NCBI GenBank assembly: GCA_964017235.1
Contig: OZ024936.1
Location: 38,524,040-38,588,039 of the forward strand
Reading direction: 5' to 3'
Source of the DNA: Sabellastarte sp. h YS-2021
Lineage: Eukaryota > Annelida > Polychaeta > Sabellida > Sabellidae
Length of the DNA stretch: 64,000 nucleotides
Numbering within the stretch: the stretch's first letter is position 1; every line of letters begins with the position of its first letter. Shown here piece by piece: positions 13,428-64,000 of the stretch. The notes beneath the pieces are model-generated. The model was given only the letters and a program-made list of their open reading frames with translations. It was not told the DNA's origin and did no database searches. A program made the position numbers and the translations under genes.

Positions 13428-13940
13428 ATGTCAGCTGACTGGTCAGTCTGTTGACATTATGTCATCACTCTGCGGCGTGGGCCTATGCGAACAACTTCCA
13501 GAGTTGCTTCTAGGATGCGTTTTCTGCGATATCTCGCATTAATTTGCTTTTGCTCGCGGATTTCATCGAAGTATGCGGGGACAAGATTGTAAAAGAACGC
13601 ATTCAGCACAAGGCAGTGCAGGATATATATACGAAGCGAAAAGACGAGAGATCAAAGAAATCGAAACGATGCGTGGAGCGAGAGTTTGTCGAGGTTTTGA
13701 TTTTTCCGTCGAAATGTTCTTCGAATAATGCCTGTAGACGATTTTGGTTCCGTGATCGTTTACAAACTCAAATATATTATGAGGTACAGACAGAATTTGG
13801 ACATATTATACCCAAAAATATAAAATTAAGCTGAAAGTGGATGATTATATAAAAAATGGCTACAAGAAAAACGAAACTTACAGTAGACTGGATTGTTACC
13901 ACAACAGGCCATGGCAGCCGGTGGTGACCCTACGGGCGTA

Positions 13941-14464
13941 GTGGCTTTCTACCAGTAAACGCCCGTGTTTAAGATAACATTTAGCATTTATCTTATATTT
14001 GGAGGTTTAGTTTATGTTCTGCTTCAACCAAATTATCCAATGACATTCAAGATAATTAATGATTTAGTGGTGGTGGACCAGTTCACGCCTGTGTACCCAT
14101 TCACGCCCACCCCTAAATTTCTCCAAAACAATCACAGTTACACAATAAATTACCAATATATATGATCAATTTGATAATTATCTATGATGTGGTAAACATC
14201 TTTTCTATGAAAAAGTATGAATCTTTAAGAAAATTGAGGGTGGGCGTGAATAGGTACACGGGCGTGAATTGGTCCACCACCACTAAATATGCTGGGGAAC
14301 ATTTCTTTGAAAGTGATGTAATTTGACAATATATCTCTATTATCGGCCGTGTTTACTGCAAACCGTAAATACCAGTGAACGCCCATTTTGTTTGCAAATA
14401 GAAGCATTTGTCCTTGACCTCTAATAAAGATATATAAGGCGGGCGTTCACTGGTAGAAAGCCAC
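13941..14464. mobile_element. MITE-B, TA-flanked, interrupted by MITE-A
   Basis: The left end GTGGCTTTCTACCAGTAAAC and the right end (inverted GTGGCTTTCTACCAGTGAAC) agree over about 27 bp. TA flanks both sides (13939-13940 and 14465-14466). A second inward copy of CCAGTGAACGCCC lies at 14371-14383. Removing the nested MITE-A leaves about 300 bp of non-coding sequence. A decayed left end of the same family is at 6685-6716. Confidence 0.88.
14067..14283. mobile_element. MITE-A copy 2, nested in MITE-B
   Basis: This copy has the same 217 bp layout as 6202-6418, with inverted ends starting GTGGTGGTGGACCA and TA duplications at 14065-14066 and 14284-14285. Base differences from copy 1 in both ends (for example CACGCCTGTG against CACGCCCGGG) show the two copies have diverged. 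Confidence 0.92.
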
Positions 14465-14514
14465 TACGTATCTGTCGGAATTCCCTAGAAAAATATTTTA
14501 CTGGATCAAAATTC

Positions 14515-14745
14515 ACGGACAACTCATTAATATTAATGAGGTCACAGATTTTCGTGGTGGTTTTAATTCTTAATATTTTCTGATTTAAGATCAAATACTA
14601 GAAGGACTACAGAGCTCATGTATGCGTAAAAAATATTTGACGATTCCATTGGATTCTTTAGCAATATTTTACTTGAAGAATTTGTGGACTACTCATTACT
14701 ATTCATGAGGTCATGGTATTCTGTGGGGTTTTCCAACATATTTGT
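14515..14745. repeat. Pair of CTCATTAATATT/GAGGTCA dispersed repeats
   Basis: Two direct copies (about 14521-14570 and 14690-14740) read CTCATT(A)ATATT(C)ATGAGGTCA followed by a GGGGTTTT-like word. The same unit flanks the palindrome near 8255. The remaining part of this hAT-like element, 14745-14985, shows nothing recognisable. Confidence 0.6.
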
Positions 14746-15092
14746 ATGAATTGATGGTGTAATGACTGAATTTGTGATGCCATGACTTCAGATGAAAACT
14801 TAAAACCATAATGCCATGACAGGAGCCACTTTGATGTAAATAACCATTTTCAGTATTTTTTTAAAATTCTATCACTAGCCTTGAAGTTTATTTTTATTGG
14901 GCAAGACAATAAAAATTGACCACTAATTAATAGAAGTCCACTGTTAAAAATGCCTAAATAAGCTGAAAATGTATTTTTTATTACTTTAAACTTATCATAA
15001 AGTCGTCCCCCAGAATTTTTAGCCCCTCCCCCACATTTTGTGTAGTGGTGGGGGATCGCCCCCACTTTTTGAAATTCCTAGAATCAACACTG

Positions 15093-15316
15093 ACTTCTCC
15101 TCCAAAACTACAAGGCCCAGAGACATGCTGTTTTTTTAAAAGATACATTAACTAAACTATTGAGGATGAAAAATTGTTCGAGGCATACAAATATGTCTGT
15201 TCGTCTGTTTGCTAGAGCCATTACAGTTGAGGTACCCCCACCAAAAGTGTGAAAATTCTAACACTTTATCACTATTTTCTCAATGGGAGTAGTTGAATGT
15301 TTTGGTAGCTAGTTTT
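15093..15316 (+). repeat. X-C leader, second part
   Basis: ACTTCTCCTCCAAAACTACA and the following AAAAGATAC...GATGAAAAATTGTTC, then GGTACCCCCACCAAAAGTGT, match the 5' leaders of XA (26465-26620) and XB (49520-49675) closely. It carries on to the T-run in which P1 is inserted. Confidence 0.8.
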
Positions 15317-16450
15317 TACCTCACCTGTCGGGGTATTGTTTTCACCCATGCTGTCCGGGTGGTCGGGCGGCGGGCAAAAGTTTGTCCGGGCTGTGTCTCA
15401 GAAACTGTAAGGTGTAGGAAGTTAATACTTGGTAGGGACATTGGTTAGGATGTGTAGGTGTGCAACGTCATGGTCTGACCTTGATTTGACCTTTGACCTT
15501 GCCGTAGTGACCTTGAGTTTGAAAGTTTTGTCCGGGCTATATCTCGGAAACTGTAAGGTGTAGGAAGTTGATATTTGGTAGGGATATTGGTTAGGGGGTG
15601 TAGATGTGCAACGTCATGGTCTGACCTCGATTTGACCTTTGACCTTGCTGTAGTGAACATGACCTATAAAATCTTGTCCGGGCTATATCTCAGAAACCGT
15701 AAAGTGTAGGAAGTTGATACTTGATAGGGACACTGGTGAGGGGGTGTAGGTATGCAACATCATGGTCTGACCATGATTTGACCTTTGATCTTGCCGTAGT
15801 GACCTTGACCAATAAAATCTTGTCTGGGCTATATCTCGGAAACCGTAAGGTATAGTAAGTTGATACTTGGTAGGGACATTGGTTAGGGGTTTTAGGTGTG
15901 CATTATCATGGTGTGACCTTAATTTGACCTTTGACCTTGTTGTAGTGACCTTGACCTTTAAAATCTTGTTGCACCTTTGGGTCTGTCTTTTGATGCAGAT
16001 TAAGCACTGTTAAAGTCATATTAGAATTTATTAAGAATTTTAGTTTTATAACTTCCCATTGTAACAGATGGAATTTCAAGAAGTGAGCCACAGATTTTGC
16101 TCCAACACCACACATAAGCATTCATTGAATGTATTACCACTTCTGTATGCATGGTAATATTCAAAACATCTAAACCATAATTCGGCCATGCAGATGTAGA
16201 TAAAGAGCATTGTAATGTTTAGTTTACCGATTAATGCTGTCATCTTGTTATTGAATTTAATACTTCATCTTTACATGCATTATCTTTCTGTTAGACATTA
16301 TTTTCTCTATTTAAACATTTTTTTGGACCTTTATATAACTGACAGTGCTCTGAAAGTATCCTGAACTTTGTACTGATACAGTACTTCTATATCTCATGGT
16401 GTTCAAAATATTTCCCTAGGCTGTGGGGTACAGGCATCTCTGATGCTATT
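15317..16450 (+). mobile_element. P1, family P rolling-circle-type element
   Basis: It starts in a T-run with TACCTCACCTGTCGGGGTA, a decayed version of the P2 hairpin. About four 146 bp monomers follow (15400-15965), then a 3' unique part. The 3' end has the subterminal GGCTGTGGGGTA (16419-16430), a small hairpin GCATC/GATGC and a terminus TATTT shared exactly with P2. Beyond that point P1 and P2 flanks differ. Left flank TAGCTAGTTTTT and right flank CTGACTTTTCAGTAC belong to one A-type host sequence. Confidence 0.75.
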
Positions 16451-16824
16451 TTCTGACTTTTCAGTACCTTCCATAATGAGTAAAATCATTTGTAACTTAA
16501 AAACCATTGTGGTTAGAGAATTTTGTGTGAATATGTTATTCAGCTACTTTTGGGTCAGCTATAACATAATAAAATTTCAGTCATGTAGCTCATTGCATAG
16601 CTGAGTAATAGTTACTTTGAGGTTATCACTGTTGAATAAATCAGTTGTAACTTGAAATATATTGTTTTTACAGTATTTTCTTTAAATGTTTTTCACCTAC
16701 TTTTCAGTCAGCTATAACATACTGCAATTGCAGGCCTGTAGCTCGTAGCATAGCTACTTTCAGGTTTTCACTGTTGAGTAAATCAGTTTTAACTGGAAAA
16801 CTATGGCATTTAGAGTATTTTATT
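16451..16824 (+). repeat. Array A segment (155 bp monomers), host of Q1
   Basis: Monomers carry GTTGAGTAAATCA, ACTATTGCATTTAGAG, CAGCTATAACATA and GCATAGCTGAGTAATAGC. The last one stops in GTATTTTATT at 16824, and its continuation TTAAATATGTTATTCACC appears at 20092 after Q1. Confidence 0.85.
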
Positions 16825-16850
16825 GTATCCCCGGCGCGAAGCGGGGATAC
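16825..16850 (+). other. Q1 5' terminal hairpin
   Basis: A 9 bp perfect stem GTATCCCCG/CGGGGATAC with loop GCGCGAAG sits directly at the element border after TT. Confidence 0.9.
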
Positions 16851-18519
16851 TATGGATTCATCATCGTCGGCGTCCGCGCCCTCGTCCGCAGAGATTTCTT
16901 GTTAGCGACCTACAGTCCACATTTCTTTCCGGATTTCTTTCATATTTGGCAGGTGGCTTGATATGGTAGAGGACTCGCCACCCTATCTTTTTGGTAGGCT
17001 TTATGTCTAAATTAGGCCTGTGGTAGACAAAAATGTCTAAAATGTGGAATATTGCTTGTTAGCGACCTACAGTCCACATTTCTTTCCAGATTTCTTTCAT
17101 ATTTGGCAGGTGGCTTGGTATGCTAGAGGACTCGCCACCCTATCTTTTTGGTAGGCTTTATGTCTAAATTAGGCCTCTGGTAGACAAAAATGTCTAAAAT
17201 GCATTAAAATTCATGAAATCATGCACTAAATCACTTATAACTTGAAAAGTGTTGCATTTAGAGCATTTTGTTAAAATATGTTATTCAGATACTTTTTTCA
17301 TAGCTACAACATGGTGAGTAACTTGGGTGTCTGTCTCAATAGCTAAGTGAGTAATAGCTACTTTTGGGCTTTTCAGTAACTTCCATCATGAGTAAAATCA
17401 CTTGTAACTTGAAAACTATTGCATTTAGAGTATTTTGTTGCAATATGTTATTCAGCTATTTTTGGCTCAGCTATAACATAGTAAAATTTCAGACCTGTAG
17501 CTCATGGCATAGCTGAGTAATAGCTACTTTTAGGTTATCACTGTTGAGTAAATTACTTATAACTTCAAAAGTATTACATTTAGAGTATTTTGTTTCAATA
17601 TGTTATTCACCTATTTCAGAGTCAGCTATAACATAGTGAAGTTCCAGACCTGTGGCTCATTGCATAGCTGAGTAATAGCTACTTTGAAGTTCACACTGTT
17701 GAGTAAATCAGTTGTAATTGGAAAACTATTGCATTTACAGAAATTTGTGTAAATATGTTATTCAGCTACTTTTGGGTCAGCTATAACATAGTGAAATTAC
17801 AGACCTGTAGCTCATGGCACAACTGAGCAATAGCTATTTTCAGGTACTGACTGTTGAGTAAATGACTTGTAACTTGAAAAATATTGCATTTGGAGTGTTT
17901 TGTTAAAATATGTTGTTCACCTACTTTTGGGTCAGCTATAACGTCGTGAAATTACAGACTTATAGCTCATGGCATAGCTGACCAATAGCTATTTTCAGGT
18001 TCTCACTATTGAGTAAATCAGTTGTAACTTGAAAACTATTGCATTTACAGTATTTTGCTTAAATATGTTGTTCACCTAATTTTGGGTCAGCTATAACATA
18101 GAAAAAATTCAGACATGTAGCTCATTGCATAGCTGAGTAATAGCTACTTTGAGGTTATCACTGTTGAGTAAATCAGTTATAACATGAAAACTATTACATT
18201 TACAGTATTTTGTTTAAATATGTTATTCACATAATTTTTGGTCAGCTATAACAGAGTGAAATTGCAGACCTCTATGTCATGGCATAGCTTACCAATATCT
18301 ACTTTCAGGTTCTCACTGTTGAGTAAATCATTGTATCCACTGGATAGCCGCAGTGTGTAGAGAGATTTCACCATTACCGCTCTAATGAAAAAAATATTAT
18401 AGCTAGCCTTCTCAAGTTTGCAAGGTATATTAGAGGGTGCACCACAGTATTCTATTGGTAGGCTTTATGTCTAAATTAGGCCTGTGGCTAAATTACTTGC
18501 CTACTAAAAATGAGTAATT

Positions 18520-19770
18520 CTGCATTTTCTCTAAAGGTATTGCAGATAGCAAATTTTTCTTAAATAACTCATTCACCTACTTTTGGGAGAGCTTTCACAT
18601 GCTGAAGTTCCAGACCTGTAGGTAATTACTCACCTACTCAAAATGAGTAAATGCGAATTATCTCTAAAAGTATTGCAGATAGCCAATTTTTCTCAAATAA
18701 CTCATTCACCTACTTTTGGGAGAGCTTTCACTTGGTGAAGTTTCAGACCTGTAGGTAATTACTCACCCACTGAAAATGAGTAAATGCAAATTATCTCTAA
18801 AAGTATTCCAGATAGCCAATTTTTGTCAAATAACTCCTTCACCTACTTTTGGGAGACCTTTCACTTGGTGAAGTTTCAGACCTGTAGCTAATTATTCACC
18901 TACTCAAAATGAGTAAATGCTAATTATCTCTAAAAGTATTGCAGATATCCAATTTTTATCAAATAACTCATTCATCTACTTTTGGGAGAGCTTTCACATG
19001 GTGAAGTTTCAGACCCATAGCTAATTATTCACCTACTCAAAATGAGTAAATGCAAATTATCTCTAAAAGTATTCCAGATAGCCAATTTTTGTCAAATAAC
19101 TCATTCGCCTACTTTTGGGAGACCTTTCACTTGGTGAAGTTTCAGACCTGTAGCTAATTATTCACCTACTCAAAATGAGTAAATGCGAATTATCTCTAAA
19201 AGTATTGCAGATAGCCAATTTTTCTCAAATAACTCGTTCACCTACTTTTGGGAGAGCTTTCACTTGGTGAAGTTTCAGACCCGTAGGGAATTACTCACCT
19301 ACTGAAAATGAGTAAATGCAAATTATCTCTAAAAGTATTCCAGATAGCCAATTTTTGTCAAATAACTCCTTCACCTACTTTTGGGAGACCTTTCACTTGG
19401 TGAAGTTTCAGACCCGTAGCTAATTATTCACCTACTCAAAATGAGTAAATACTAATTATCTCTAAAATATTGCAGATATCCAATTTTTATCAAATAACTC
19501 ATTCATCTACTTTTGGGACAGTTTCACATGGTGAAGTTCCAGACCCGTAGGTAATTACTCACCTACTGAAAATGAGTAAATTCGAATTATCTCTAAAAGT
19601 ATTGTAGGTAGCCAATTTTTCTCAAATAACTCATTCGCCTACTTTTGAGAGAGCTTTCACTTGGTGAAGTTTCAGACCCGTAGCTAATTATTCACCTACT
19701 CAAAATGAGTAAATGCGAATTATCTCTAGAAGTATTGCAGATAGCCAGTATTTCTCAAATAACTCATTAA
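18520..19770 (+). repeat. Array E segment in Q1 (133 bp monomers)
   Basis: About nine tandem monomers with GGGAGAGCTTTCACTTGGTG, CACCTACTCAAAATGAGTAA and AAAGTATTGCAGATAGCCAA. The same monomer fills 56456-57359 and most of element G. Confidence 0.88.
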
Positions 19771-20091
19771 TGTAAAAACAACTTATAGGAAGTCATGGGC
19801 TGCAAATCTTTTCATGTGGTCAGATTTGACCTTGGGCCCCTCCTGCTTATTATTGGTCCTAGAGGTTTGCAATGTGAAAACGACTTATAGGAAATCATGG
19901 GCTGCGAATCTTTTGATCAGGTCAGACTTCACCTTGGGCCCCTGCTACAGGGTCAAATAAGGGTAACCAAACTTAAAAGTGCTTTCAGCTTGCTTATTAA
20001 CGAAAAATGCTGTTTATCTTCTAAACTATGTTAGTTGGCCTTTGTCGGTGGATACATCCAGCATCTGGTCACAGATGCGTCCTTAGTCTAG

Positions 20092-21476
20092 TTTAAATAT
20101 GTTATTCACCTACTTTCAGGTGAGCTATAACACAGAAAAATTGCAGACCTGTAGCTCATTGCATAGCTGAGCAGTAGCTGTTTTCAGGTTTTCACTGTTG
20201 AGTAAATCAGTTATAACTTGAAAACTATTGCACTTAGAGAATTTCCTTGAAATATGTCATGCAGCAACTTTTGGATCAGCTATAGCATAGTAAAGTTGCA
20301 TACCTGTAGCACATAGCATAGCTGAGCGATAGCTACTTTGATGTTCTCACTGTTGAGTAAATCAGTTGTAACTTGAAAACTATTGCATTTAGGATATTTT
20401 CTTCAAATATGTTGTTCACCTACTTTTGGGTCAGCTATAACATAGTAAAATTTCAGACGTGTAGCTCATTGCATAGCTGAGGAATAGCTACTTTGAGGTT
20501 CTCACTGTTGAGTAAATCAGTTTTAACTCGAAAGCTATTGCATTTAGAGAAATTTGTTTAAACATATTTTTCACTTTTGGGTAGGCTATAACATAGTGAA
20601 ATTGTAGACCTGTAGCTCCCAGCATAGCTGAGCAATAGCTACTTTGAGGTTCTCACTGTTGAGTAAATCAGTTGTAACTAGAAATTTATTACATTTAGAG
20701 TATTTTGTTTAAATATGTTATTATTGTACTTTTGGGTCAGCTATAACATAGTAAAACTGTAGACCTATAGCTCATTACATAGCTGAGCAGTAGCTATTTT
20801 CAGGTTTTCACTGTTGAGTAAATCAGTTATAACTTGAAAACTATTGCATTTAGAGAATTTCCTTGAAATATGCTATTCGTCTACTTTTGGGTCAACTATA
20901 ACATAGTAAAGTTGCAGACCTGTAGCTCATAGCATAGCTGAGTAATAGCTACTTTGAGGTTCTCACTGTTGAGTAAATGAGTTGTAACTTGAAAACTATT
21001 TGATTTACAGTATTTTGTTTAAATATGTTATTCATGTACTTTTCAGTCAGCTATAACAGTGGAATTGAAGACCTGTAGCTCATTGCACAGCTGAGGAATA
21101 GCTATTTTCTGGTTATCACTGTTTTGTGAATCACTTGTAGCTTGAAAACTATTGCATTTAGAGAATTTTCTTTAAATATGTTATTAATCTACTTTTGGGT
21201 CAGCCATAACATAGTAAAATTGCAGACATGTAGCTAATTGCAAAGCTAAACAATAGCTACTTCCAGGTTCTCACTGTTGAGTAAATCAGTTGTAACTTGA
21301 AAAGTATTGCATCTACAGTATTTTGTGTAAATGTGTTATTCATCTACTTTTCAGTCAGTTATAAGAATGAAATTGTATACCTGTAGCTCATAGCATAGTG
21401 GAGCAATAGCTACTTTCAGGTTGTCACAGTTGAGTAGATGAGTAGTAACTTGAAACTGTTGCATTTACAGTATTTT
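20092..21476 (+). repeat. Array A segment of X-C (155 bp monomers)
   Basis: About nine diverged A monomers. The last one is cut in a T-run after GCATTTACAGTATTTTT (21476) by the chain P2-Q2-XA and resumes as TTAAATGTGTTGTTCACC at 32261. Confidence 0.85.
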
Positions 21477-23076
21477 TACCCCACAGCCCTTAAGGGCTGT
21501 CGGGGTATTGTTTTCACCCATGGTGTCCGGATGGGTGGGCGGGCGGGCAGCGGGAAAAAGTTTATCCGGGCTGTATCTCAGAAACCGTAAGGTGTAGGAA
21601 GGTGATACTTGGTAGGGACATTGGTTAGGGGGTGTAGGTGTGCAACATAATGGTCTGACCTTGATTTGACCTTTGACCTTGCCGTAGTGACCTTGAGTTT
21701 GAAAATCCTGTCCGGGCTATATCTCGGAAACCGTAAGGTGTAGGAAGTTGATACTTGGTAGGGACATTGGTTAGGGGGTGTAGTTGTGCAACATCATGGT
21801 CTGACCTTGATTTGACCTTTGACCTTGCCATAGTGACCTTGACCTATAAAATCTTGTCCGGGCTATATCTCGGAAACTGTAAGGTGTAGCAAGCTGATAT
21901 TTGGTAGGGACTTTGGTTAAGGGGTGTAGGTGTGCAACGTCATGGTCTGACTTTGATTTGACCTTTGACCTTGCCGTAGTGACCTTGACCTATAAAATCT
22001 TGTCCGGGCTATATCTCGGAAACCGTAAGGTGTAGGAAGTTGATATGTGATAGGGATATTGGTTAGGGGGTGTAGGTGTGCAACGTCATGGTGTGACCTT
22101 GATTTGACCTTTGATCTTGCTGTAGTGACCTTGACCTATAAAATCATGTCCGGGCTATATCTCGGAAACCGTAAGGTGTGGGAAGTTGATACTTGGTAGG
22201 GACATTGGTTGTGGGGTGTAGGTGTGCAAAGTCATGGTCTGACCTTGATTTGACCTTTGACCTTGCCATATTGACCTTGACCTATAAAATCTTGTCCGGG
22301 CTATATCTCGGAAACTGTGAAGTGTAGTCAGTTGATACTTGGTAGGAATATTGGTTAGGGGGTGTAGGTGTGCAACGTCATGGTCTGACCATGATTTGCC
22401 CTTTGATCTTGCCGTAGTGACCTTGACCTATAAAATCTTGTCTGGGCTATATCTCGGAAACCGTAAGGTATAGGAAGTTGATACTTGGTAGGGACATTGG
22501 TTAGGGGTTTTAGGTGTGCATTATCATGGTGTGACCTTAATTTGACCTTTGACCTTGTCGTAGTGACCTTGACCTTTAAAATCTTGTTGCACCTTTGGGT
22601 CTGTCTTTTGATGCAGATTAAGCACTGTTAAAGTAATATTAGAATTTATTAAGAATTTTAGTTTTATAACTTCCCATTGTAAGAGATGGAATTTCATCAA
22701 GTGAACCACAGATTTTGCTCCAACACCACACATAAGCATTCATTGAATGTATTACCACTTCTGTATGCATGGTAATATTCAAAACATCTAAACCATAATT
22801 CTGCCATGCAGATGTAGATAAAGAGTGTTGTAATTTTAGTTTACTGATTAATGCTGTCATCTTGTTATTGAATTATCTTGTTTTGATACTTCATCTTTAC
22901 ATGCATTATCTTTCTTTTAGATGTTATTTTTTCTATTTAAACATTGTTTGGACCTTTATATAACTGACAGTGCTCTGAAAGTATCCTGAACTTTGTACTG
23001 ATACAGTACTTCTATATCTCATGGTGTTCAAAATATTTCCCTAGGCTGTGGGGTACGGGCATCTCTGATGCTATTT
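21477..23076 (+). mobile_element. P2, family P rolling-circle-type element
   Basis: The 5' hairpin (21477-21507) has the palindromic core ACAGCCCTTAAGGGCTGT flanked by TACCCC and CGGGGTA. A GGGTGGGCGGGCGGGC leader and about seven 146 bp monomers (21560-22590) follow, then a unique 3' part nearly identical to that of P1. The 3' end has GGCTGTGGGGTA (23044-23055, a copy of the hairpin's inner arm), hairpin GCATC-TCT-GATGC (23059-23071) and the terminus TATTT. Element Q2 begins at the next base. Confidence 0.85.
21560..22590 (+). repeat. 146 bp tandem array with nuclear-receptor-like half-sites
   Basis: Each monomer contains TGACCTTGATTTGACCTTTG, GACCTTGACC, TGTCCGGGCTATATCTCGGA and GGTGTAGGTGTGCAACGTCA. 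The spacing between successive TCCGGGCTATATC words is 146 bp (21711, 21857, 22003). The same monomer, more diverged, fills 15400-15965 in P1. Confidence 0.9.
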
Positions 23077-23822
23077 GTATCCCCGGACGAAAGTCGGGGA
23101 TACTTAGGATTCAGTACGGTCACGCCGCCGCCGCAGAGATTTCCTTTTGGATGCGATAACTTAAAAAATATTTTAGTTAGAACTTTCAAATTTGGTATGT
23201 GGGTATATATGGGCAATGCCATGAACGCTATTGTTTTGTGACCTTGACCTTCAATCTCAAGGTCACTGGTGGCCTCTTAAAGGTCAGATTTTGGCCATTT
23301 TTTCACTTTTTGGCCCACTTCTCCTGTACAGAAAGTCAGATCATCCTATGGCTGGTATATATAATGCATATATATGTCCTCTGTAAGCATGGAGAAATTT
23401 GACCTTGAAGCTCTTCATTGAAGGTCATCTACTGACCGCCAAAGTACCTGACCGAGGGTCATTTTTGGCCTTTTTGGAGATATTTTCACACTTAATGCTG
23501 ACTATATTGCATGGAAACTATTGAAAATGGCGTTGGAGATTGAGTACATGATGGACTTCTACCATCCAGGCTTACTGGTTACAGATCTTCATTTAAGGTC
23601 ATCCACTGACCGCCAAAGTACCTGACCAAGGGTCATTTTTTGGCAAATTTGGAGATATTTTCACACTTAATGCTGACTACATTGCATGGAAACTATTGAA
23701 AATGGCTTTGGAGGTTGAGTACATGATGGAGTACCAGCATCCAGGCTTACCGGTTACAGATCTTCATTTTAGGTCATCCACTGACCGCCAAAGTACCTGA
23801 CCGAGGGTCATTTTTGGCCCTC

Positions 23823-26250
23823 TATTTGTTTGTTTGTTTGTGAACAAGATAACTCAAAAACTGACGGATGGATTTTGATAAAATTTTCAGGATATGTCCA
23901 AAATGGTAAAAGGAAGATATGATTAAATTTTGGGAGTGATCCGGATCACTGTCTGGATCTTCTGGATCCATGAAATTTAATTTTTAAAGACAGATAACTC
24001 AAAAACTTATGGGTGCATTTTGATGACATTTTCAGGAAATGTCCTTAATGGGACGAGGAACAAGTGATTAGATTTTGGGAGTGATCTGGATCACTGTCTG
24101 GATCATCCGGATCCAGGCTGCCAGATGTGTTTGTGTACAATATAGCTCAAAAACTTATGGATGGATTTTGATGAAATTTTCAGGATATGTCTGAAAAGGT
24201 AAAAGGATGAAATGGTTGAATTTTGGAAGTGATCCGGATCACTATATGGATCTTTTGGATCCATGAAATGTAATTTTTAAAGACAGATACCTCAAAAAGT
24301 TATGGATGGATTGTGATGACATTTTCAGCAAATGACCTAAATGGTACAAGGAACAAGTGATTACATTTTTGGAGTGATCTGGATGACTGTCTGGATCATC
24401 TGGATCCAGGCTGCAACATAATTTTAGGATGAATTTTGATGATATTTTTAGGATATGTTACAAATGGTAAAAGGAAGAAGTGGTAAAAGGAAGAAATGGT
24501 TCAATTTTGCGAGTGATCTGGACCACTATCTGGATCTTCTGGATCCATGAAATATAATTTTTAAAGACAAATAGCTCAAAAAGTCATGGGTGGATTTTGA
24601 TGAAATTTTCAGGAAATGTCCTAAATGGGACAAGGAACAAGTGATTAGATTTGGGGAGTGATCTGGATCATCTGGATCCAGGCTGCCAGATGTGTTTGTG
24701 TACAATATAAATCAAAAACTTATGGATGGATTTTGATGAAATTTTCAGGATATGTCTGAAAAGGTAAAAGGATGAAATGATTGAATTTTGGAAGTGATCC
24801 GGATCACTATATGGATCTTTTGGATCCATGAAATGTAATTTTTAAAGACAGATACTTCAAAAAGTTATGGATGGATTGTGATGACATTTTCAGCAAATGA
24901 CCTAAATGGGACAAGGAACAAGTGATTACATTTTTGGAGTGATCTGGATCATCTGGATCCAGGCTGCCAGATGTGTTTGTGTACAATGTAGCTGAAAAAC
25001 TTATGGACGGATTTTGATGAAATTTTCAGGATATGTCTGAAAAGGTAAAAGGATGAAATGGCTGAATTTTGGAAGTGATCCGGATCACTATATGGATCTT
25101 CTGGATCCATGAAATGTAATTTTTAAAGACAGATACCTCAAAAAGTTATGGATGGATTGTGATGACATTTTCAACAAATGACCTAAATGGTACAAGGAAC
25201 AAGTGATTACATTTTTGGAGTGATCTGGATCATCTGGATCCAGGCTGCAACAGAATTTTAGGATGAATTTTGATGATATTTTTAGGATATGTTAGAAATG
25301 GTAAAAGGAAGAAGTGGTAAAAGGAAGAAATGATTCAATTTTGCGAGTGATCTGGACCACTATCTGGATCTTTTGGATCCATGAAATCTAATTTTAAAGA
25401 CAAATAGCTCAAAAAGTCATAGGTGGATTTTGATGAAATTTTCAGGAAATGTGCTAAATGGGACAAGGAACAAGTGATTAGATTTTGGGAGTGATCTGGA
25501 TCATCTGGATCCAGGCTGCCAGATGTGTTTATGTACAAGATAAATCAAAAACTTATCGACGGATTTTGATGAAATTTTCAGGATATGTCTGAAAAGGTAA
25601 AAGGATGAAATGATTGAATTTTGGAAGTGATCCGGATCACTATATGGATCTTCTGGATCCATGAAATGTAATTTTTAAAGACAGATACCGCAAAAAGTTA
25701 TGGATGGATTGTTTCAGCAAATGGCCTAAATGGTACAAGGAACAAGTGATTAAATTTTTGGAGTGATCTGGATCACTGTCTGGATCATCTGGATCGAGGC
25801 TGCCACATAATCTTGGGATGGACTTTGATATTTTAGGATATGTTACAAATGGTAAAAGGAATAAGTGGTAAAAGGAAGAAATGATTCAATTTTGCGAGTG
25901 ATCTGGACCACTCTCTGGATCTTCTGGATCCAAGAAATGTAATTTTTAAAGACAAATAGCTCAAAAAGTCATGGATGGATTAATGGGACAAAGAACAAGT
26001 GATTAGTTTTGGGGAGTAATCTGGATCACTGTCTGGATCATGTGGATCCAGGCTGCCAGATGTGTTTGTGTACAAGATAACTAAAAAACTTATCGACGGA
26101 TTTTGATGAAATTTTTAGAAGATGTCTGAAAAGGTAAAAGGATGAAATGATTGAATTTTGGAAGTGATCCGGATCACTATATGGATCTTCTGGATCCATG
26201 AAATGTAATTTTTAAAGACAGATATAAGTGAAAGAACTAGTGATTAGCTT
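23823..26250 (+). repeat. Array J, GATCC-rich dimeric tandem repeat
   Basis: Alternating half-units contain GTGATCCGGATCACTATATG or GTGATCTGGATCATCTGGAT, each preceded by TTTTGATGAAATTTTCAGGA. The spacing of the TGTTTGTGTACAA word (for example 24692 to 24975) gives a dimer of about 280 bp. Some half-units are deleted. The monomers carry the inverted word GATCCGGATC. Confidence 0.85.
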
Positions 26251-26261
26251 TTGGGAGTAAT

Positions 26262-26335
26262 CTGGTACTATGGAGAATCCTGACCTGGTGCTCCAGGAAA
26301 CAGGCTCAAGACCGACATATTCACGCCTTAACTAT
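26262..26335 (+). pseudogene. Short DIRS RNase H relic near the Q2 3' end
   Basis: TACTATGGAGAATCCTGACC and the following TGGTGCTCCAGGAAACAGG align with the DIRS RNase H region at 1429-1467 (TACTATGGAGAATCTTGACC, TGGTGTACCAGAAATCAAG). This is the segment encoding LLWRILTWC. It lies between array J and the Q2 terminal structures, as a captured fragment would. Short length keeps confidence moderate. Confidence 0.55.
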
Positions 26336-26779
26336 GTCCCGTCCGGGGATACACTGCGTCGAGACGCAATCTCTAGTTTTTTATGTCAGCTGACTTGTCA
26401 GTCAGCTGACATTATGTCGTCACTCTGCGGCGTGGGCGTACGCGTCCGCGTCCGCGTGAACAACTTCTCCTCCAAAACTACAAGGCCTAGAGACGTGCTG
26501 TTTTTTTTAAAAGATACCTTATCTATCGAGGATGAAAAATTGTTCTAGGCATGCAAATCTGTCTGTTCGTCTGTTTGCTAGAGACATTACAAGGGGGGTA
26601 TCCCCACCAAAAGTGTGAAAATTTCAACACTTAATCACAATTTTCTCAGTGACTATTGCAGGGATTTCTCTCATATCTTGCATATATGTACTAGGCCAGA
26701 GGTAGATTCTCTTGTGTGAGTATGAGACCTGGATCTGTCTTACTTTTTTTTTAATAAATTTTTTTAATAATTTTTAATG

Positions 26780-31960: not shown

Positions 31961-32260
31961 TCATGGTCGAACGAGGATATTGCATTTATAGTATTTCTTT
32001 AAATATTTTTAACCTACTTTTTACACTTAAACAATTACCTTGTTACTTTATTTCATAATACCATTTGCAGGGCACAACTTTTTTGTCCTTTTCTTCTATC
32101 AGCTTCGGAATATCTTTCGAACATGCTGTTCAGTTACCATTTACTGTATTTCTGTACAGCCCTTTCCCTGATAATTATGCTTTCCTCTCATTATCACCAT
32201 CACAAATCAAAAACATTCAGTCAGCTGACACAGTGCCCGTTCACAGGCACTCTCCTCTTG

Positions 32261-32833: not shown

Positions 32834-32876
32834 CAGTCAGCTGACACAGAGCCTGTTCACGGGCACTGATTGCTTG

Positions 32877-46905: not shown

Positions 46906-46909
46906 CTTA

Positions 46910-49435: not shown

Positions 49436-49849
49436 ATGTCAGCTGACTTGTCAGTCAGCTGGCATTATGTCGTCACTCTGCGGCGTGGGCGTACGCGTAC
49501 GCGTCCGCGTCCGCGTGAACAACTTCTCCTCCAAAACTACAAGGCCTAGAGACGTGCTGTTTTTTTTAAAAGATACCTTATCTATCGAGGATGAAAAATT
49601 GTTCAAGGCATGCAAATCTGTCTGTTCGTCTGTTTGCTAGAGACATTACAAGGGGGGTACCCCCACCAAAAGTGTGAAAATTTCAACTTTTTATCACAAT
49701 TTTCTCAGTGACTATTGCAGGGATTTCTCTCATATCTTGCATATATGTACTAGGCCAGAGGTAGATTCTCTTGTGTGAGTATGAGACCTGGATCTCTCTT
49801 ACTTTTTTTTTAATAAATTTTTTTAATAATTTTTAATGCATTAACATTC

Positions 49850-52800: not shown

Positions 52801-53755
52801 TGAAGTTCTCAATGTTGAGTAAATCACTTGTAATTTGAAAACTATTGCATTTAGAGAATTTAGTATAAATATGTTATTCAGCTACTTTTGGGTCAGCTAT
52901 AACATAGTAAAATTTCAGACCTGTAGCTCATGGCATAGCTGAGTAATAGCTACTTTTAGGTTATCACTGTTGAGTAAATCACTTATAACTTGAAAACTAT
53001 TGCATTTAGAGTATTTTGTTTCAATATTTTATTCACCTATTTTGGGGTCAGCTATAACATAGTGAAGTTCCAGACCTGTGGCTCATTGCATAGCTGAGTA
53101 ATAGCTACTTTGAAGTTCTCACTGTTGAGTAAATCAGTTGTAATTGGAAAACTATTGCTTTTACAGAAATTTGTGCAAATATGTTATTCAGCTACTTTTG
53201 GGTCAGCTATAACATAGTGAAATTACAGACCTGTAGCTCATGGCACAACTGAGCAATAGCTGTTCTCAGGCACTGACTGTTGAGTAAATCAGCTATAACT
53301 TGAAAAATATTGCATTTGGAGTATTTTGTTAAAATATATTGTTCACCTACTTTTGGGTTAGCTATAACATAGTGAAATTACAGACCTATAGCTCATGGCA
53401 TAGCGGAGCAATAGCTATTTTCTGGTTCTCACTATTGAGTAAATCAGTTGTAACTTGAAAACTATTGCATTTACAGTATTTTGCTTAAATATGTTGTTCA
53501 GCTACTTTTAGGTCAGCTATAACAGAGCAAAAATTCAGACATGTAGCTCATTGCATAGCTGAGTAATAGTTACTTTGAGGTTCTCACTCTTGAGTAAATC
53601 AGTTGTAACTTGAAAATTATTACATTTAGAGTATTTTGTTAAATATGTTATTCACAGACGTTTTGGTCAGCTATAACATAGTGAAATTGCAGACCTCTAT
53701 GTCATGGGATAGCTGAGCAATAGCTTCTTTCAGGTTCTCACTGTTGAGTAAATCA
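49850..53755 (+). repeat. Array A in XB (155 bp monomers)
   Basis: About 25 monomers. Short higher-order duplications are visible: GAATTTAGTATAAATATGTT with the rare GGGTCAACTATAAC recurs at about 50998, 52083 and 52393, that is seven and two monomers apart. This pattern differs from the nine-monomer duplication in XA. Confidence 0.9.
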
Positions 53756-53756
53756 T

Positions 53757-54720
53757 TGTATCCAACCCGTAGGAAATCATGGGCTGGGAATCTGTTAATA
53801 TGGTCCGATTTGACCTTGGAACCCTCCTTCAAGGTCAAATGAGGATAGCCAAACATAAAAGTGCTTATAACTCGCTTATTATTGGTCCCAGAGGTTGGAA
53901 TGAAAACCAACCTATAGAAAATCATGAGCTGGGAATTTTTTGGTGTGGTCGGATTTCACCTTGGACCCCTCCTTCAAGGTCAAATGAGGATAGCCAAACT
54001 TAAAAGTGCTTATAACTCACTTATTATTGGTCCTAGAGGTTTCGAATGGAAAACCAAGCTATAGAAAATCATGGGCTGGGAATCTTTTGGTGTGGTCGGA
54101 TTTGACCTGGGACCCCTCCTTCAAGGGCAGTTGAGGATAGCCAAACTTACAATTGCTTAAAACTCGCTTATTATTGGTCCTACAAGTTTGGGATGGTAAA
54201 CAAGCTACAGGAAATCATGGGCTGGGAATTTTTTTGTGTGGTCGGATTTGACCTTGGACCCCCTCCTTCCAGGTCAAACAAAGATAGCCAAACTTAAAGT
54301 GCTTATAACTCGCTTATTATTGGTCTTGGAGGTTTGGGATGGTAAACCAACATATAGGAAATCATGGGCTGGGATTCTTTTGGTGTGGTCAGATTTGACC
54401 TGGGACCCTCCTTCAAGGGCAGTTGAGGATAGTCAAACTTACAATTGCTTAGAACTCGCTTATTATTGGTCCTACAAGTTTGGGATGGTAAACAAGCTAC
54501 AGGAAATCATGGGCTGGGAATTTTTTTGTGTGGTCGGATTTGACCTTGGACCCCCTCCTTCAAGGTCAAACAAGGATAGCCAAACTTAAAAAGTGCCTAT
54601 AACTCACTTATTATTGGTCCGAGAGGTTTGGGATGGTAAACCATCCTAAATTCTTTGGCTGGGAATCTTTTGGTATGGTCAGATTTGACCTTTGGACCCC
54701 TTCTTCATGGTGGAACGAGG
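53757..54720 (+). repeat. Array H in XB
   Basis: About six copies of the roughly 147 bp unit with AAATCATGGGCTGGGAATCT and AGGTCAAATGAGGATAGCC. Unit order partly differs from that in XA. Confidence 0.85.
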
Positions 54721-55003
54721 ATATTGCATTTATAGTATTTCTTTAAATATTTTTAACCTACTTTTTACCCTTAAACAATTACCTTGTTACTTTATTTCAT
54801 AATACCATTTGCAGGGCACAACTTTTTTGTTGTTTTCTTCTGTCAGCTTCGGAATATCTTTCGAACATGTGTTCAGTTACCATTTACTGTATTTCTGTAC
54901 AGCCCTTTGCCTGATAATTATGCTTTCCTCTCATTATCACCATCACAAATCAAAAACATTCAGTCAGCTGACACAGTGCCCGTTCACGGGCACTCTCCTC
55001 TTG

Positions 55004-57359: not shown

Positions 57360-57749
57360 AAGCGTCCCACAAGGGACGCTTGTTTGTGTATGGGAGACCT
57401 TCAGGCTCCACCGGCTCCGGCGGCTCCGCATTTTGTTTTCCTTATAACTCTGTAACCGTTAAGCGGATTCTTTTCAAATTTGGCAGGTTTAGGCAGTAGC
57501 CTTGGGGAATTTTTTTGAATATGCTGCAGTGACATTTCAACCAATCAGAGAGGTCACATGACCAAAAATGTCTTTTTTCGATGAGGAAGCTTGTCCGGAT
57601 GATAACTTGAAAGGAATTTTATCAATTCACCTGAAACTTGGCAAATACATTCATTCTATTAAAATCTGGAAATCATTAGATTTTGGCATTGATTGGTTAA
57701 GAAATGGCCGAGTAATTAATGATTAATCAATCATTATGAATTTTCCAAA

Positions 57750-58355
57750 TAAGGAAAACACAAAAATGCTTATATCTCGAAAACCGTGCTAGATAGAGCG
57801 ATTTCGACAAAATTTTTGATCCGCAGGGCATCTCTGAAGAGTAGTTATCCCAATTTTCAAAAAATTTTTGTCTCGCCAAAAATGGCGGCCATTTTGAATT
57901 TTCGAATTTTTCGCAACAATTGCAAAACACAAAAATGCTTATATCTCGAAAACCGTGCTAGATAGAGCGATTTCGATGAAATTTTTGACCCACAGGGTAT
58001 CTCTGCAGAGTAGTTATCCCAATTTTCAAAAAAATTTTGTCTCGCCAAAAATGGCAGCCATTTTGAATTTTCGAATTTTTCGCAAAAATTACAAAACACA
58101 AAAATGCTTATATCTCGAAAACCGTGCTAGATAGAGCGATTTCGACGAAATTTTTGATCCACAGGGTATCTCTGCAGAGTAGCCATGCCAATTTTCAAAA
58201 AAATTTTCTCTTGCCAAAAATGGCGGCCATCGTGAATCTTCGAATTTTTGCGCAAAAATTGCAAAACACAAAAATGGTAATATTTCGAAAACCGTGCTAC
58301 ATAGAGCGATTTCGACGAAATTTTTGATCTTCAGGGTATCTCTGCAGAGCAGCTA
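57750..58355 (+). repeat. F-like monomers in G, left block
   Basis: About four units with ATATCTCGAAAACCGTGCTA, GATAGAGCGATTTCGACGAA, CAGGGTATCTCTGCAGAGTA and AAAATGGCGGCCATTTTGAA. These are clearly related to array F but form a separate subfamily. Confidence 0.88.
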
Positions 58356-59390
58356 TCCCAAAGAGCTTTCACTTGGTGAAGTTTCAGACCCATAGCTAAT
58401 TGCTCACCTACTCGAAATGAGTAAATGCGAATTACCTCTAAAAGTATTGCAGATAGCCAACTTTTCTCAAATAACTGATTCACCTACTTTTGGAAGAGCT
58501 TTCACTTGGTGAAGTTTCAGACCCGTAGCTAATTACTCACCTACTCGAAATGAGTAAATGCGAATTACCTCTAAAAGTATTGCAGATAGCCAATTTTTCT
58601 CAAATAACTCATTCACCTACTTTTGGAAGAGCTTTCACATGGTGAAGTTTCAGACCCATAGCTAATTATTTACCTACTCAAAATGAGTAAATGCTAATTA
58701 TCTGTAAAAGTATTGCGGATACCCAATTTTTATCAAATAACTCATTCATCTACTTGTGGGAGAGCTTTCACATGGTGAAGTTTCAGACCCATAGCTAATT
58801 ACTCACCTACTCAAAATGAGTAAATGCGAATTATCTCTAAAAGTATTGCAGATAGCCAATTTTTCTCAAATAACTCATTCACCTAGTTTTGGGAGAGCTT
58901 TCACTCTGTGAAGTTTCAGACCCATAGCTATTTATTCACCTACTCAAAATGAGTAAATGCTAATTATCTGTAAAAGTATTGCGGATACCCAATTTTTATC
59001 AAATACTCATTCATCTACTTGTGGGAGAGCTTTCACTTGGTGAAGTTTCAGACCCATAGCTAATTACTCACCTATTCAAAATGAGTAAATGTGAATTATC
59101 TCTAAAAGTATTGCAGATAGCCAATTTTTCTCTAATAACTCATTCACCTACTTTTGGGAGAGCTTTCACTTGGTGAAGTTTCAGACCCATAGCTAATTAT
59201 TCACCTACTCAAAATGAGTAAATGTGAATTATCTCTACAAGTATTGCAGATAGTCAATTATTCTCAAATAACTCATTCACCTACTTTTGGGAGAGCTTTC
59301 ACTCTGTGAAGTTTCAGACCCATAGCTATTTATTCACCTACTCAAAATGAGTAAATGCGAATTATCTCTAAAAGTATTGCAGATAGCCAG
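58356..59390 (+). repeat. Array E block 1 in G
   Basis: About eight 133 bp monomers. The junction with the F-like block at about 58360 (CTATCCCAAAGAGCTTTCAC) is repeated exactly at 59889. Confidence 0.9.
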
Positions 59391-59394
59391 ATTG

Positions 59395-59888
59395 GTTAAG
59401 AAATGGCCGAGTAATTAATGATTAATTAATCATTATGAATTTTCCAAATAAGGAAAACACAAAAATGCTTATATCTCGAAAACCGTGCTAGATAGAGCGA
59501 TTTCGACGAAATTTTTGACCCACAGGGTATATCTGCAGAGTAGCCATGCCAATTTTCAAAAAAATTTTATCTCGCCAAAAATGGCGGCCATTTTGAATTT
59601 TCGAATTTTTCGCAAAATTGCAAAACACAAAAATGCTTATATCTCGAAAACCGTGCTAGATAGAGCGATTTCGACGAAATTTTTGACCCACAGGTTATCT
59701 CTGCAGAGTAGCCATGCCAATTTTCAAAAAAATTTTCTCTTGCCAAAAATGGCGGCCATTTTGAATTTTCGAATTTTTGCGCAAAAATTGCAAAACACAA
59801 AAATGGTAATATTTCGAAAACCGTGCTACATAGAGCGATTTCGACGAAATTTTTGATCTTCAGGGTATCTCTGCAGAGCAGCTATCCC
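59395..59888 (+). repeat. F-like monomers in G, second block
   Basis: Three F-like units. The block starts with the G leader words GATTGGTTAAGAAATGGCCG (59393), as at 57692, and ends in the same sequence as the first block, so it arose by internal duplication. Confidence 0.88.
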
Positions 59889-62800
59889 AAAGAGCTTTCA
59901 CTTGGTGAAGTTTCAGACCCATAGCTAATTGCTCACCTACTCGAAATGAGTAAATGCGAATTACCTCTAAAAGTATTGCAGATAGCCAACTTTTCTCAAA
60001 TAACTGATTCACCTACTTTTGGAAGAGCTTTCACTTGGTGAAGTTTCAGACCCGTAGCTAATTACTCGCCTACTCAAAATGAGTAAATGCTAATTATCTC
60101 TAAAGTATTGCAGATAGCCAATTTTTCTCAAATAACTCATTCACCTACTTTTGGGAGAGCTTTCACTTAGTGAAGTTTCAGACCCATAGCTAATTACTCA
60201 CCTACTCAAAATGAGTAAATGCGAATTATCTGTAAAAGTATTGCAGATAGCCAATTTTTCTCAAATAACTCATTCACCTACTTTTGGGAGAGCTTTCACT
60301 TGGTGAAGTTTCAGACCCATAGCTAATTACTCACCTACTCAAAATGAGTAAATGCGAATTATCTCTAAAAGTATTGCAGATAGCCAATTTTTGTCAAATT
60401 AATCATTCACCTACTTTTGGGAGAGCTTTCACTTGGTGAAGTTTCAGACTCATAGCTAATTACTCACCTACTCAAAATGAGTGCGAATTATCTCTAAAAG
60501 TATTGCAGATAGCCAATTTTTCTCAAATAACTCATTCACCTACTTTTGGGAGAGCTTTCACTCTGTGAAGTTTCAGACCCATAGCTAATTACTCACCTAC
60601 TCAAAATGAGTAAATGCGAATTATCTGTGAAAGTATTGCAGATAGCCAATTTTTCTCAAATAACTCATTCACCTACTTTTGGCAGAGCTTTCACTTGGTG
60701 AAGTTTCAGACCCATAGCTAATTACTCACCTACTGAAAATGAGTAAATGTGAATTATCTCTAAAAGTATTGCAGATAGCCAATTTTTCTCAAATAACTCA
60801 TTCACCTACTTTTGGGAGAGCTTTCACTTGGTGAAGTTTCAGACCCATAGCTAATTACTCACCTACTGAAAATGAGTAAATGCGAATTATCTCTAAAAGT
60901 ATTGCAGATAGCCAATTTTTCTCAAATAACTCATTCACCTACTTTTGGCAGAGCTTTCACTTGGTGAAGTTTCAGACCCATAGCTAATTACTCACCAACT
61001 CAAAATGAGTAAATGCGAATTATCTCTAAAAGTATTGCAGATAACCAGTTTTTCTCAAATTATTCATTCACCTACTTTTGGGAGAGCTTTCACTTGGTGA
61101 AGTTTCAGACCCATAGCTAATTACTCACCTACTCAAAATGAGTAAATGCGAATTATCTGTAAAAGTATTGCAGATAGCCAATTTTTCTCAAATAACTCAT
61201 TCACCTACTTTTGGGAGAGCTTTCACTCTGTGAAGTTTCAGACCCATAGCTAATTACTCAGCTACTCAAAATGAGTAAATGCGAATTATCTCTAAAAGTA
61301 TTGCAGATAGCCAATTTTTCTCAAATAACTCATTCACCTACTTTTGGCAGAGCTTTCACTTGGTGAAGTTTCAGACCCATAGCTAATTACTCACCTACTG
61401 AAAATGAGTAAATGTGAATTATCTCTAAAAGTATTGCAGATAGCCAATTTTTCTCAAATAACTCACCTACTTTTGGGAGAGCTTTCACTTGGTGAAGTTT
61501 CAGACCCATAGCTAATTACTCACCTACTGAAAATGAGTAAATGCGAATTATCTCTAAAAGTATTGCAGATAGCCAATTTTTCTCAAATAACTCATTCACC
61601 TACTTTTGGCAGAGCTTTCACTTGGTGAAGTTTCAGACCCATAGCTAATTACTCACCTACTCAAAATGAGTAAATGCGAATTATCTCTAAAAGTATTGCA
61701 GATAGCCAGTTTTTCTCAAGTTATTCATTCACCTACTTTTGGGAGAGCTTTCACTTGGTGAAGTTTCAGACCCATAGCTAATTACTCACCTACTCAAAAT
61801 GAGTAAATGCGAATTATCTGTAAAAGTATTGCAGATAGCCAATTTTTCTGAAATAACTCATTCACCTACTTTTGGGAGAGCTTTCACTTGGTGAAGTTTC
61901 AGACCCATAGCTAATTACTCACCTACTCAAAATGAGTGAATGCGATTTATCTCTAAAAGTATTGCAGATAGCCAATTTTTGTCAAATTAATCATTCACCT
62001 ACTTTTGGGAGAGCTTTCACTTGGTGAAGTTTCAGACCCATAGCTAATTACTCGTCTACTCAAAATGAGTAAATGTGAATTATCTCTAAAAGTATTGCAG
62101 ATAGCCAATTTTTCTCAAATAACTCATTCACCTACTTTTGGGAGAGCTTTCACTCTGTGAAGTTTCAGACCCATAGCTAATTACTCACCTACTCAAAATG
62201 AGTAAATGCGAATTATCTCTAAAAGTATTGCAGATAGCCAATTTTTCTCAAATAACTCATTCACCTACTTTTGGCAGAGCTTTCACTTGGTGAAGTTTCA
62301 GACCCATAGCTAATTACTCACCTACTGAAAATGAGTAAATGTGAATTATCTCTAAAAGTATTGCAGATAGCCAATTTTTCTCAAATAACTCATTCACCTA
62401 CTTTTGGCAGAGCTTTCACTTGGTGAAGTTTCAGACCCATAGCTAATTACTCACCTACTGAAAATGAGTAAATGCGAATTATCTCTAAAAGTATTGCAGA
62501 TAGCCAATTTTTCTCAAATAACTCATTCACCTACTTTTGGCAGAGCTTTCACTTGGTGAAGTTTCAGACCCATAGCTAATTACTCACCTACTCAAAATGA
62601 GTAAATGCGAATTATCTCTAAAAGTATTGCAGATAGCCAGTTTTTCTCAAGTTATTCATTCACCTACTTTTGGGAGAGCTTTCACTTGGTGAAGTTTCAG
62701 ACCCATAGCTAATTACTCACCTACTCAAAATGAGTAAATGCGAATTATCTGTAAAAGTATTGCAGATAGCCAATTTTTCTCAAATAACTCATTCACCTAC

Positions 62801-63480
62801 TTTTGGGAGAGCTTTCACTTGGTGAAGTTTCAGACCCATAGCTAATTACTCACCTACTCAAAATGAGTGAATGCGAATTATCTCTAAAAGTATTGCAGAT
62901 AGCCAATTTTTGTCAAATTAATCATTCACCTACTTTTGGGAGAGCTTTCACTTGGTGAAGTTTCAGACCCATAGCTAATTACTCGTCTACTCTAAATGAG
63001 TAAATGCGAATTATCTCTAAAAGTATTGCAGATAGCCAATTTTTCTCAAATAACTCATTCACCTACTTTTGGGAGAGCTTTCACTTGGTGAAGTTTCAGA
63101 CCCATAGCTAATTACTCACCTACTCAAAATGAGTAAATGCGAATTATCTCTAAAAGTATTGCAGATAGCCAATTTTTCTCAAATAACTGATTCACCTACT
63201 TTTGGGAGAGCTTTCACTTGGTGAAGTTTCAGACCCATAGCTAATTTTTCACCTACTCAAAATGAGTAAATGCGAATTATCTCTAAAAGTATTGCGGATA
63301 CCCAATTTTTATCAAATAACTCATTCATCTACTTTTGGGAGAACTTTCACTTGGTGAAGTCCCAGACCCGTAGGTAATTACTCACCTACTCAAAAGGAGT
63401 AAATGTGAATTATCCCTTAATGGTATTGCAGACAGCCAATTTTTCTCAAATATCTCATTCACCTACTTTTGGGAGAGCTT
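59889..63480 (+). repeat. Array E block 2 in G (about 27 monomers)
   Basis: 133 bp monomers with GGGAGAGCTTTCACTTGGTG and AGTTTCAGACCCATAGCTAA. Rare variants recur about 930 bp apart: CTCAAGTTATTCATTC (61716, 62646), ATGAGTGAATGCGA (61932, 62862) and TACTCGTCTACTC (62050, 62980). This defines a seven-monomer higher-order repeat. Confidence 0.92.
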
Positions 63481-64000
63481 TCACACACGAAAATGAAAAA
63501 TTGTGAATATCTCGGAAAAGCTATTTCTTCTCCTTTAATGCTCGGCGGGAGATACACACCGCGACAGTGGTCTTGTCAAAACATTTTGTCTCCCCAAAAA
63601 TGGTGGCCATTTTGAATTTTCAAAGTTTTTGCAAAACACAAAAATGCTTATATCTCGAAAACCGTGCTAGATGGAGCGAACTCAACAAAATTTTTGACCT
63701 GCTGGGTTCTCTGCAGAGTAGCCATGCCAATTTTCAAAATATTTTTTTCTCGCCAAATATAGCGGACATTTCGAATTTTCGAATTTTTTGCAAAACACAA
63801 AAATGCTTATATCTTGAAAACCGTACTAGATAGAGCAGACTGCACTGACTTTGGTTGCCACAACAGTATAAGGCTAGAAACGAAGCATTTTCTTAATACT
63901 TTAGCACTCACCGTTATATCCTTTTCGGGACGCTTTGTTTTTGCTATGCAAAAACATTATCTTTTTTTTTGCGAGCGATCCTCTAGTTAATTATTTTGTA

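Follow-up and report, generated by a model that had tools for sequence, protein, structure and literature searches.

Helitron2 transposons were defined by Bao & Jurka in 2013 (PMC3627910) by a terminal plan of a 5' hairpin, an asymmetric terminal inverted repeat (ATIR), a 3' hairpin and borders between Ts. The same paper describes two Culex elements with compensatory base mutations and suggests that, as rolling-circle replication ends, pairing of the 5'-ATIR with the 3'-ATIR destroys the 5' hairpin; papers on Helentrons and HINEs (PMC4067079, PMC7492417) add TT targets and tandem arrays. Here we analyse a 64,000-nucleotide stretch of the Sabellastarte sp. genome (the window; C14:38524040-38588039 of a 1.786-Gb assembly of 647 contigs) containing elements of five families, X, P, Q, R and G (Table 1). 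An original prediction, made from the sequence alone, had named the Helitron2/Helentron plan in connection with them, and they do follow that plan. We conclude, with a probability of about 0.92, that this region consists of nested HINEs, non-autonomous rolling-circle transposons of the Helitron2/Helentron kind. Since the elements share the terminal plan published in 2013, they are new members of a kind already known and do not constitute a new one.

The likeness to Helitron2 (PMC3627910) includes a 5' ATIR situated 0–2 bp from the end inside the 5' hairpin, compensatory changes, T-run targets and the pairing-switch model, whereas the window's elements lack a Rep-helicase (RepHel) gene, carry long tandem arrays and, in G and R, have a 3' copy as far as 51 and 78 nt from the end. 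With the HINEs and Helentrons of Thomas et al. 2014 (PMC4067079) they share palindromic subterminal inverted repeats (subTIRs), a 3' palindrome, TT insertion with a varying T number, and tandem repeats in some copies, and the autonomous partner with a C-terminal endonuclease has a putative counterpart here in the family S described below; the sequences are different, and the subTIRs start at the very end here as opposed to 2–4 nt from it in the mite. Cg_HINE of the Pacific oyster (PMC7492417) is alike by description, with a 5' subTIR and its complementary inverted repeat, a short GTCC-like microsatellite, a satellite-like array and a 3' subTIR plus palindrome, and its subTIRs likewise change along with the remainder of the element; in the window, unlike in that account, elements sit within the arrays of other elements. 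Non-canonical Helitrons of Fusarium oxysporum (PMC5148889) also possess ATIRs, with hairpins at both ends in two subgroups and termini (ATTTT or CTCCTGT) comparable to TATTT and CTCTTG here, but they were discovered through their genes, and the main text of that paper does not use the term 'tandem repeat'. Taken together, these four papers already contain the structural points of the layout, including compensation and the pairing model. New here are the linkage statistics of Q 5' and 3' ends (34/35, versus 0/2 for a haplotype termed GTAT/A), a doubled 3' end in the lineage Q3, and a Helentron with an uninterrupted RepHel frame and other termini.

The motifs quoted in the original prediction were found in the sequence, and the common terminal layout that it proposed is real. 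For the first 16 nt of each element we sought the longest exact inverse match within its last 90 nt, with 2000 dinucleotide shuffles of the 3' stretch as control. The own matches of Xa, Xb, Xc, P2, Q2, G and both 5' ends of R (R1, R2), which measure 9–13 nt (Table 1), were each equalled in only 0–2/2000 shuffles; those of Q1 and Q0 are weak (equalled in 46/2000 and 622/2000). An ATIR, that is the 5' end with its subterminal 3' copy, thus stands above shuffled sequence in X, P2, Q2, R and G. Matches between families do not exceed 7 nt, with the exception of the Q1 5' end and the Q2 3' end (10 nt). Further evidence comes from a scan for the plan only (TT, hairpin, far inverse copy, second hairpin and a CTAG, CTTG or TATTT terminus), which used no sequence knowledge and whose criteria were set knowing the finding. 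It returned eight distinct 5' loci on the plus strand and none on the other; of 40 shuffled windows, 34 had no such locus, five had one and one had two (mean 0.18 per window). Q1 was counted via Q2's copy rather than its own, and Xa and Q0 were missed; a looser version, without the terminus motif and the G+C limit, added one plus-strand locus outside the elements (6866) and several minus-strand satellite loci.

The 5' hairpins folded for X, P2, Q1, Q2, R1, R2 and G, that of P1 being damaged, and the 3' copy is followed by a hairpin with a stem of 5–8 bp in P, Q2, X, R and G and, by eye, GCATCTG/CAGATGC in Q1. By predicted folding energies the 5':3' duplex is more stable than the 5' hairpin in 12/12 rows, a result that carries no weight because the duplex figure omits the hairpin-loop cost. 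The 3' termini are CTTG or TATTT in X and P and CTAG in Q, R and G, and the position of CTAG after a 3' hairpin would suit classic Helitrons (Helitron1). However, the 5' ends start with AT, TA, GT, TA and AA, never with TC, the borders fall between Ts, and both 5' hairpins and ATIRs are present, which makes assignment to that class highly improbable.

In its details the predicted layout required revision. The inner arm of the 5' hairpin had been said to recur near the 3' end, but in P2 (inner arm GGCTGTCGGGGTA, copy GGCTGTGGGGTA) the inner arm carries an extra C absent from the copy, and in Q2 (inner arm GTCGGGGATAC, copy CGTCCGGGGATAC) a base bulged out of the hairpin is part of the copy; in both elements the 3' copy complements the outer arm and does not repeat the inner one. 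Proximity to the 3' end is accurate for P2, Q1, Q2 and X, at 18–36 nt, and less so for the more distant copies of G and R. The terminus CTCTTG given for X is that of Xb and Xc, whereas the outer X copy (Xa, to 32876) has GCTTG. Finally, the families are unrelated in their termini but not in their array units, which are common to different families: a stretch of Q1 is 78–83% identical to X's 146-bp array, and one of G is ~74% identical to R's array.

To locate borders, the genome was queried with the two joined flanks of each element, a match that spans the junction representing an empty paralogue. Empty sites at the predicted base, without long target duplications, were found for Xa (3/5 matches spanning), Xc and Q1 (Table 1) and for the block P2-Q2-Xb (21477–32260; 90/106), and the joined flanks of Xc, Q1 and the block restore repeat units. 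The flank join of Xa matches three insertion-free loci, Xa being inserted in the left end of a second, partial X. P2, Q2 and Xb follow one another head to tail, each starting at the T-run that closes its predecessor, and none has an individual empty site: no match spanned the junction for Q2 alone (0/6), Xb alone (0/87) or Q2-Xb (0/87), the single spanning match of P2 alone (1/89) is Q1's 5' end itself, and the five of P2-Q2 (5/89) are weak (75–81%) and extend ~30 nt beyond the junction. The borders of P2 and Q2 are therefore shown only as parts of the block. Spanning matches were also absent for P1 (0/42), R1 (0/2), R2 (0/4) and G (0/52, and 0/53 with 4 kb of extra right flank); the right flank of G is no continuation of its left-flank array, even after 4 kb more. 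The originally predicted borders thus stand for Xa, Xc, Q1 and the block and lack empty sites for R, G and P1. Counts of Ts at filled versus empty sites are 6+2 versus 8, 8 and 7 for Xa, 5+3 versus 6 (four units) for Xc, and 2+3 versus 3, 3 and 2 for Q1. Xc and Q1 have about two more Ts than their empty sites, which fits a varying T number or a short T duplication alike, and Xa shows no gain; from these counts we infer insertion between Ts with a varying T number.

The X 5' 13-mer occurs 8873+9004 times in the genome versus 15+20 for the reversed pattern. In 200 kb around 13 X 5' places, a correctly oriented X 3' end lay downstream in 10/13; the search pattern for this end itself required the inverse copy, with up to two changes permitted, and the copy was unchanged in nine of the ten. 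Recent near-identical element copies exist in the genome. One copy of Q3 on contig C11 is inserted in a RepHel gene, and its joined flanks align to an uninterrupted relative over 300 columns, with a single gap and 99.7% identity. This gene was considered as the autonomous partner of Q3 and rejected, as the Q3 copy is an insertion within it. These data bear on the possibility that the region consists of satellite arrays with chance edge hairpins, the termini being no transposon ends at all. Tandem arrays do make up most of the region, their units are common to several families, and R, G and P1 lack an empty site; yet four insertions, and the C11 Q3 copy as well, have an empty counterpart at the predicted base, the plan-only scan is far above shuffles, and the ends occur in thousands of copies. 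A satellite origin is already contradicted for X, Q1 and Q3 (R and G excepted), and for the region as a whole we give it almost no credence.

The Q superfamily comprises at least four lineages: Q1, Q2, Q3 (5' ATATCCCCAGAC, 3' GTCTGGGGATAT) and Q4 (5' GTATCCACCGG or GTATCCACTGG, 3' CCGGTGGATAC). Q1 and Q2 had been put forward as a case of joint change in the hairpin and the repeated arm. This example is wrong, because the two have an identical 5' outer arm (GTATCCCCG) and different 3' copies (CGGTGGATAC in Q1, CCGGGGATAC in Q2). Between lineages Q2 and Q3, in turn, two ATIR positions are different, at the 5' as well as the 3' end. Their 5' hairpin pattern occurs 4338+4138 times in the genome (control 0) and their 3' pattern 9804+9353 times (control 152+157), with 100 matches listed for each. 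Among the 100 listed 5' matches, counted by hand, 84 are ATAT/A..ATAT, 13 GTAT/G..ATAC and 3 GTAT/A..ATAC; none has a broken outer pair, although the search pattern permitted it. Both lists cover one stretch of contig C1, and for each of its 42 5' ends we took the nearest downstream GTCC..ATAC or GTCT..ATAT on the same strand within 15 kb, exact patterns that miss otherwise mutated ends. ATAT/A ends led to GTCT..ATAT in 31/33 cases (of the other two, one had only the inner segment described below and one nothing), and GTAT/G ends to GTCC..ATAC in 3/7, with no match for the remaining four. Jointly, the two lineages on C1 have the matching 3' copy in 34/35 linked elements, and no swapped 5':3' pair was seen among the linked C1 ends. 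The compensation proposed in the original prediction as part of its recognition grammar is partly borne out by Q2 and Q3; the Q1/Q2 example fails, and such compensation had been published before (PMC3627910). A predicted third co-changing haplotype, GTATCCCCAGAC with GTCTGGGGATAC, was not found: the two linked cases carry GTCCGGGGATAC.

Q ends therefore match by lineage, with few independent events behind the counts and one haplotype with an uncompensated change. It is possible, if unlikely, that the elements are of Helentron type and the Q2/Q3 co-change reflects common descent only, with two old lineages carrying linked variants and no selection for 5':3' pairing. The 34 matching linked pairs go back to very few events, the third haplotype pair is absent from the linked C1 cases, and neither the GTAT/A haplotype (0/2) nor the Q1 lineage (0/3) has a perfect pair. 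Common descent has more difficulty with X, P2, Q2, R and G, the termini of which are unrelated and yet each match their own copy, as do those of Q3 and of the family S described below, and with the compensatory pairs published for Culex (PMC3627910). The predicted duplex of the Q1 lineage is still ~11–12 bp long with one bulged base. The best 40 of 705 candidate genome matches to the Q1 right end are 96–100% identical, suggesting, by right-end identity and not base by base, that Q1's 3' copy is common in the genome. On the minus strand at C1_3184520, an apparent Q4 5' end and a Q2 3' end lie 1.15 kb apart, a mixed pair that nesting may explain.

Q3 3' ends (GTCTGGGGATATGT) are frequently doubled. 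A second 3'-end-like segment lies upstream in 36/44 of those listed, the other 8/44 having none in the list, and 36/38 listed GTCTGGGGATAC places have a GTCTGGGGATATGT within 2 kb downstream in the same orientation, the distance being 128–150 bp in 35 cases and 1218 bp in one. In the four Q3 copies read by eye, a short inverted repeat comes after the inner segment. This suggests that the inner segment is an older 3' end, retained after the gain of a new one; elements terminating at the inner segment were not found. Individual Q3 copies on C1 and C11 (L013, L017, L025, L035) have the second segment ~128 bp upstream of the 3' copy, and the copy at C1:2415680-2435599 has its 3' part twice, 1897 bp apart. 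R (34208, 34563) has a pair of 5' ends, separated by a few hundred bases, to one 3' end, an arrangement also seen twice in family S (C3:168666691/168667291; L026 minus strand, 7617/8030). Arrays of plant Helitrons with several 5' ends and one 3' end are described in a review (PMC12628747).

The Helitron_like_N profile has 24 matches in the genome and none in 14 control genomes. One locus has an uninterrupted 2245-amino-acid frame with DUF6570, Helitron_like_N and PIF1 matches and a weak C-terminal Exo_endo_phos match. The frame is flanked by 5' hairpins TAGG[T/C]GGGTTGCG at C3:168666691 (TAGGTGGGTTGCG) and C3:168667291 (TAGGCGGGTTGCG) and, on its 3' side, by the copy CGCAACCCGCC followed by CTCTTG|TT near C3:168678924. 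This family, S, has the same plan with a further unrelated terminal sequence, and S ends without a gene between them are present on C1. The genome thus contains a Helentron, the S element with its frame, whose ends follow the plan seen in the window's elements. In all, 11 of the 24 Helitron_like_N loci were examined for termini, ten of them over 3.5 kb downstream only; among these ten, an S 3' end is present in two and a Q3 insertion in one, and the other seven have none of the ends sought. The search for Rep/helicase elements that the original prediction had proposed therefore led to a Helentron with the same plan and other termini.

Several observations weigh against the HINE reading. R and G have no empty sites, leaving the borders of both unconfirmed. 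Pairing of the 5' and 3' ends is imperfect in all three paired copies of the Q1 lineage (Q1, Q0 and C1:1949536), and the rarer GTAT/A haplotype leads to GTCC..ATAC in 2/2 linked cases, mismatched at one position. No RepHel gene with X, P, Q, R or G ends was found among the 11 loci examined, and the Exo_endo_phos match of the S frame is below the Pfam curated cut-off (21.4 versus 24.5 bits).

We posit that HINEs of this region would be mobilised in trans. A Rep-helicase (or Rep-helicase-endonuclease) made elsewhere would nick at the T/5' border, and rolling-circle replication driven by the enzyme would follow; the single-stranded 3' copy may then pair with the 5' arm, opening the 5' hairpin and marking the second cut, after which the copy would be joined into another T-run. 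It is a speculative and rather improbable extension that one Helentron enzyme, perhaps of the S type as the only autonomous kind with ends identified here, moves families with unrelated termini by structure, recognising a 5' hairpin plus any 3' segment that pairs with the outer arm. If so, new families would arise through a changed 5' arm and a captured pairing 3' end, with the old one left inside; the doubled Q3 3' end suggests such a capture.

Table 1. Elements of the window, with positions counted from its first base.
Element	Context	Position	Strand	Ends and matches
Xa	X element, outermost host of the nest	13428..32876	+	5' hairpin arm ATGTCAGCTGACT, 3' copy CAGTCAGCTGACA, GCTTG end before TT; 13-nt own match; 3 empty paralogous sites
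P1	P element with damaged 5' hairpin, within Xa	15317..16450	+	Right end shares 94% identity with P2's over 489 columns
Q1	Within 155-bp array of Xa	16825..20091	+	Imperfect 3' copy: 6 nt exact, ~11 bp with one bulge; empty site spanned by 131/155 matches
P2		21477..23076	+	5' TACCCCACAGCC, 3' copy GGCTGTGGGGTA; 12-nt own match; right border ambiguous within Ts
Q2	Directly 3' of P2	23077..26376	+	5' GTATCCCCGGACG, 3' copy CGTCCGGGGATAC; 13-nt own match
Xb	Directly after Q2 and T-run	26383..32260	+	CTCTTG end; 12-nt own match
R	Two 5' ends (34208, 34563), one 3' end	34208..46301	+	CTAG end; own matches of 11 nt (R1) and 10 nt (R2)
Xc	Within 321-bp array	49436..55003	+	CTCTTG end; 12-nt own match; 135/149 matches spanning
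G		57360..63986	+	5' AAGCGTCCC, 3' copy GGGACGCTT, CTAG end; 9-nt own match
Q0	Small Q1-lineage copy, outside the region of the original prediction	4734..5494	-	5' GTATCCCTGG, 3' copy CCGGTGGATAC, CTAG end; 6-nt own match

Q0 is the sole minus-strand member among the listed elements. P1, Q1, P2, Q2 and Xb, all nested in Xa, and Xa in its own host X have one orientation, despite T-runs and A-runs of 2–4 or more being about equally frequent on the plus strand. The host is represented by 13354–13427 and 32877–33270, the left end of another, partial X without a 5' hairpin, and Xa sits in its T-run. Inside Xa's left end, ~1.6 kb of other sequence (~13500–15090) contains repeats around ACCAGTRAACGCCC. 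Elsewhere in the window, two overlapping frames with reverse transcriptase matches (9024–11730) represent a non-LTR retrotransposon broken by a frame change, and a 547-amino-acid open frame (705–2348) has no Pfam match at E 0.001. A search of the window against Rfam gave no matches at gathering scores, and no RepHel gene was found inside its elements.

The window shows Helitron2-type elements stacking into one another at T-runs and bearing long satellite arrays. With thousands of copies of Helitron2-type ends and a Helentron with an uninterrupted Rep-helicase frame in the same genome, the pairing-switch model of 2013 becomes testable by statistics, the material being linked 5' and 3' ends, lineages with perfect versus imperfect pairs, and Q3 with its inner second 3'-end-like segment.

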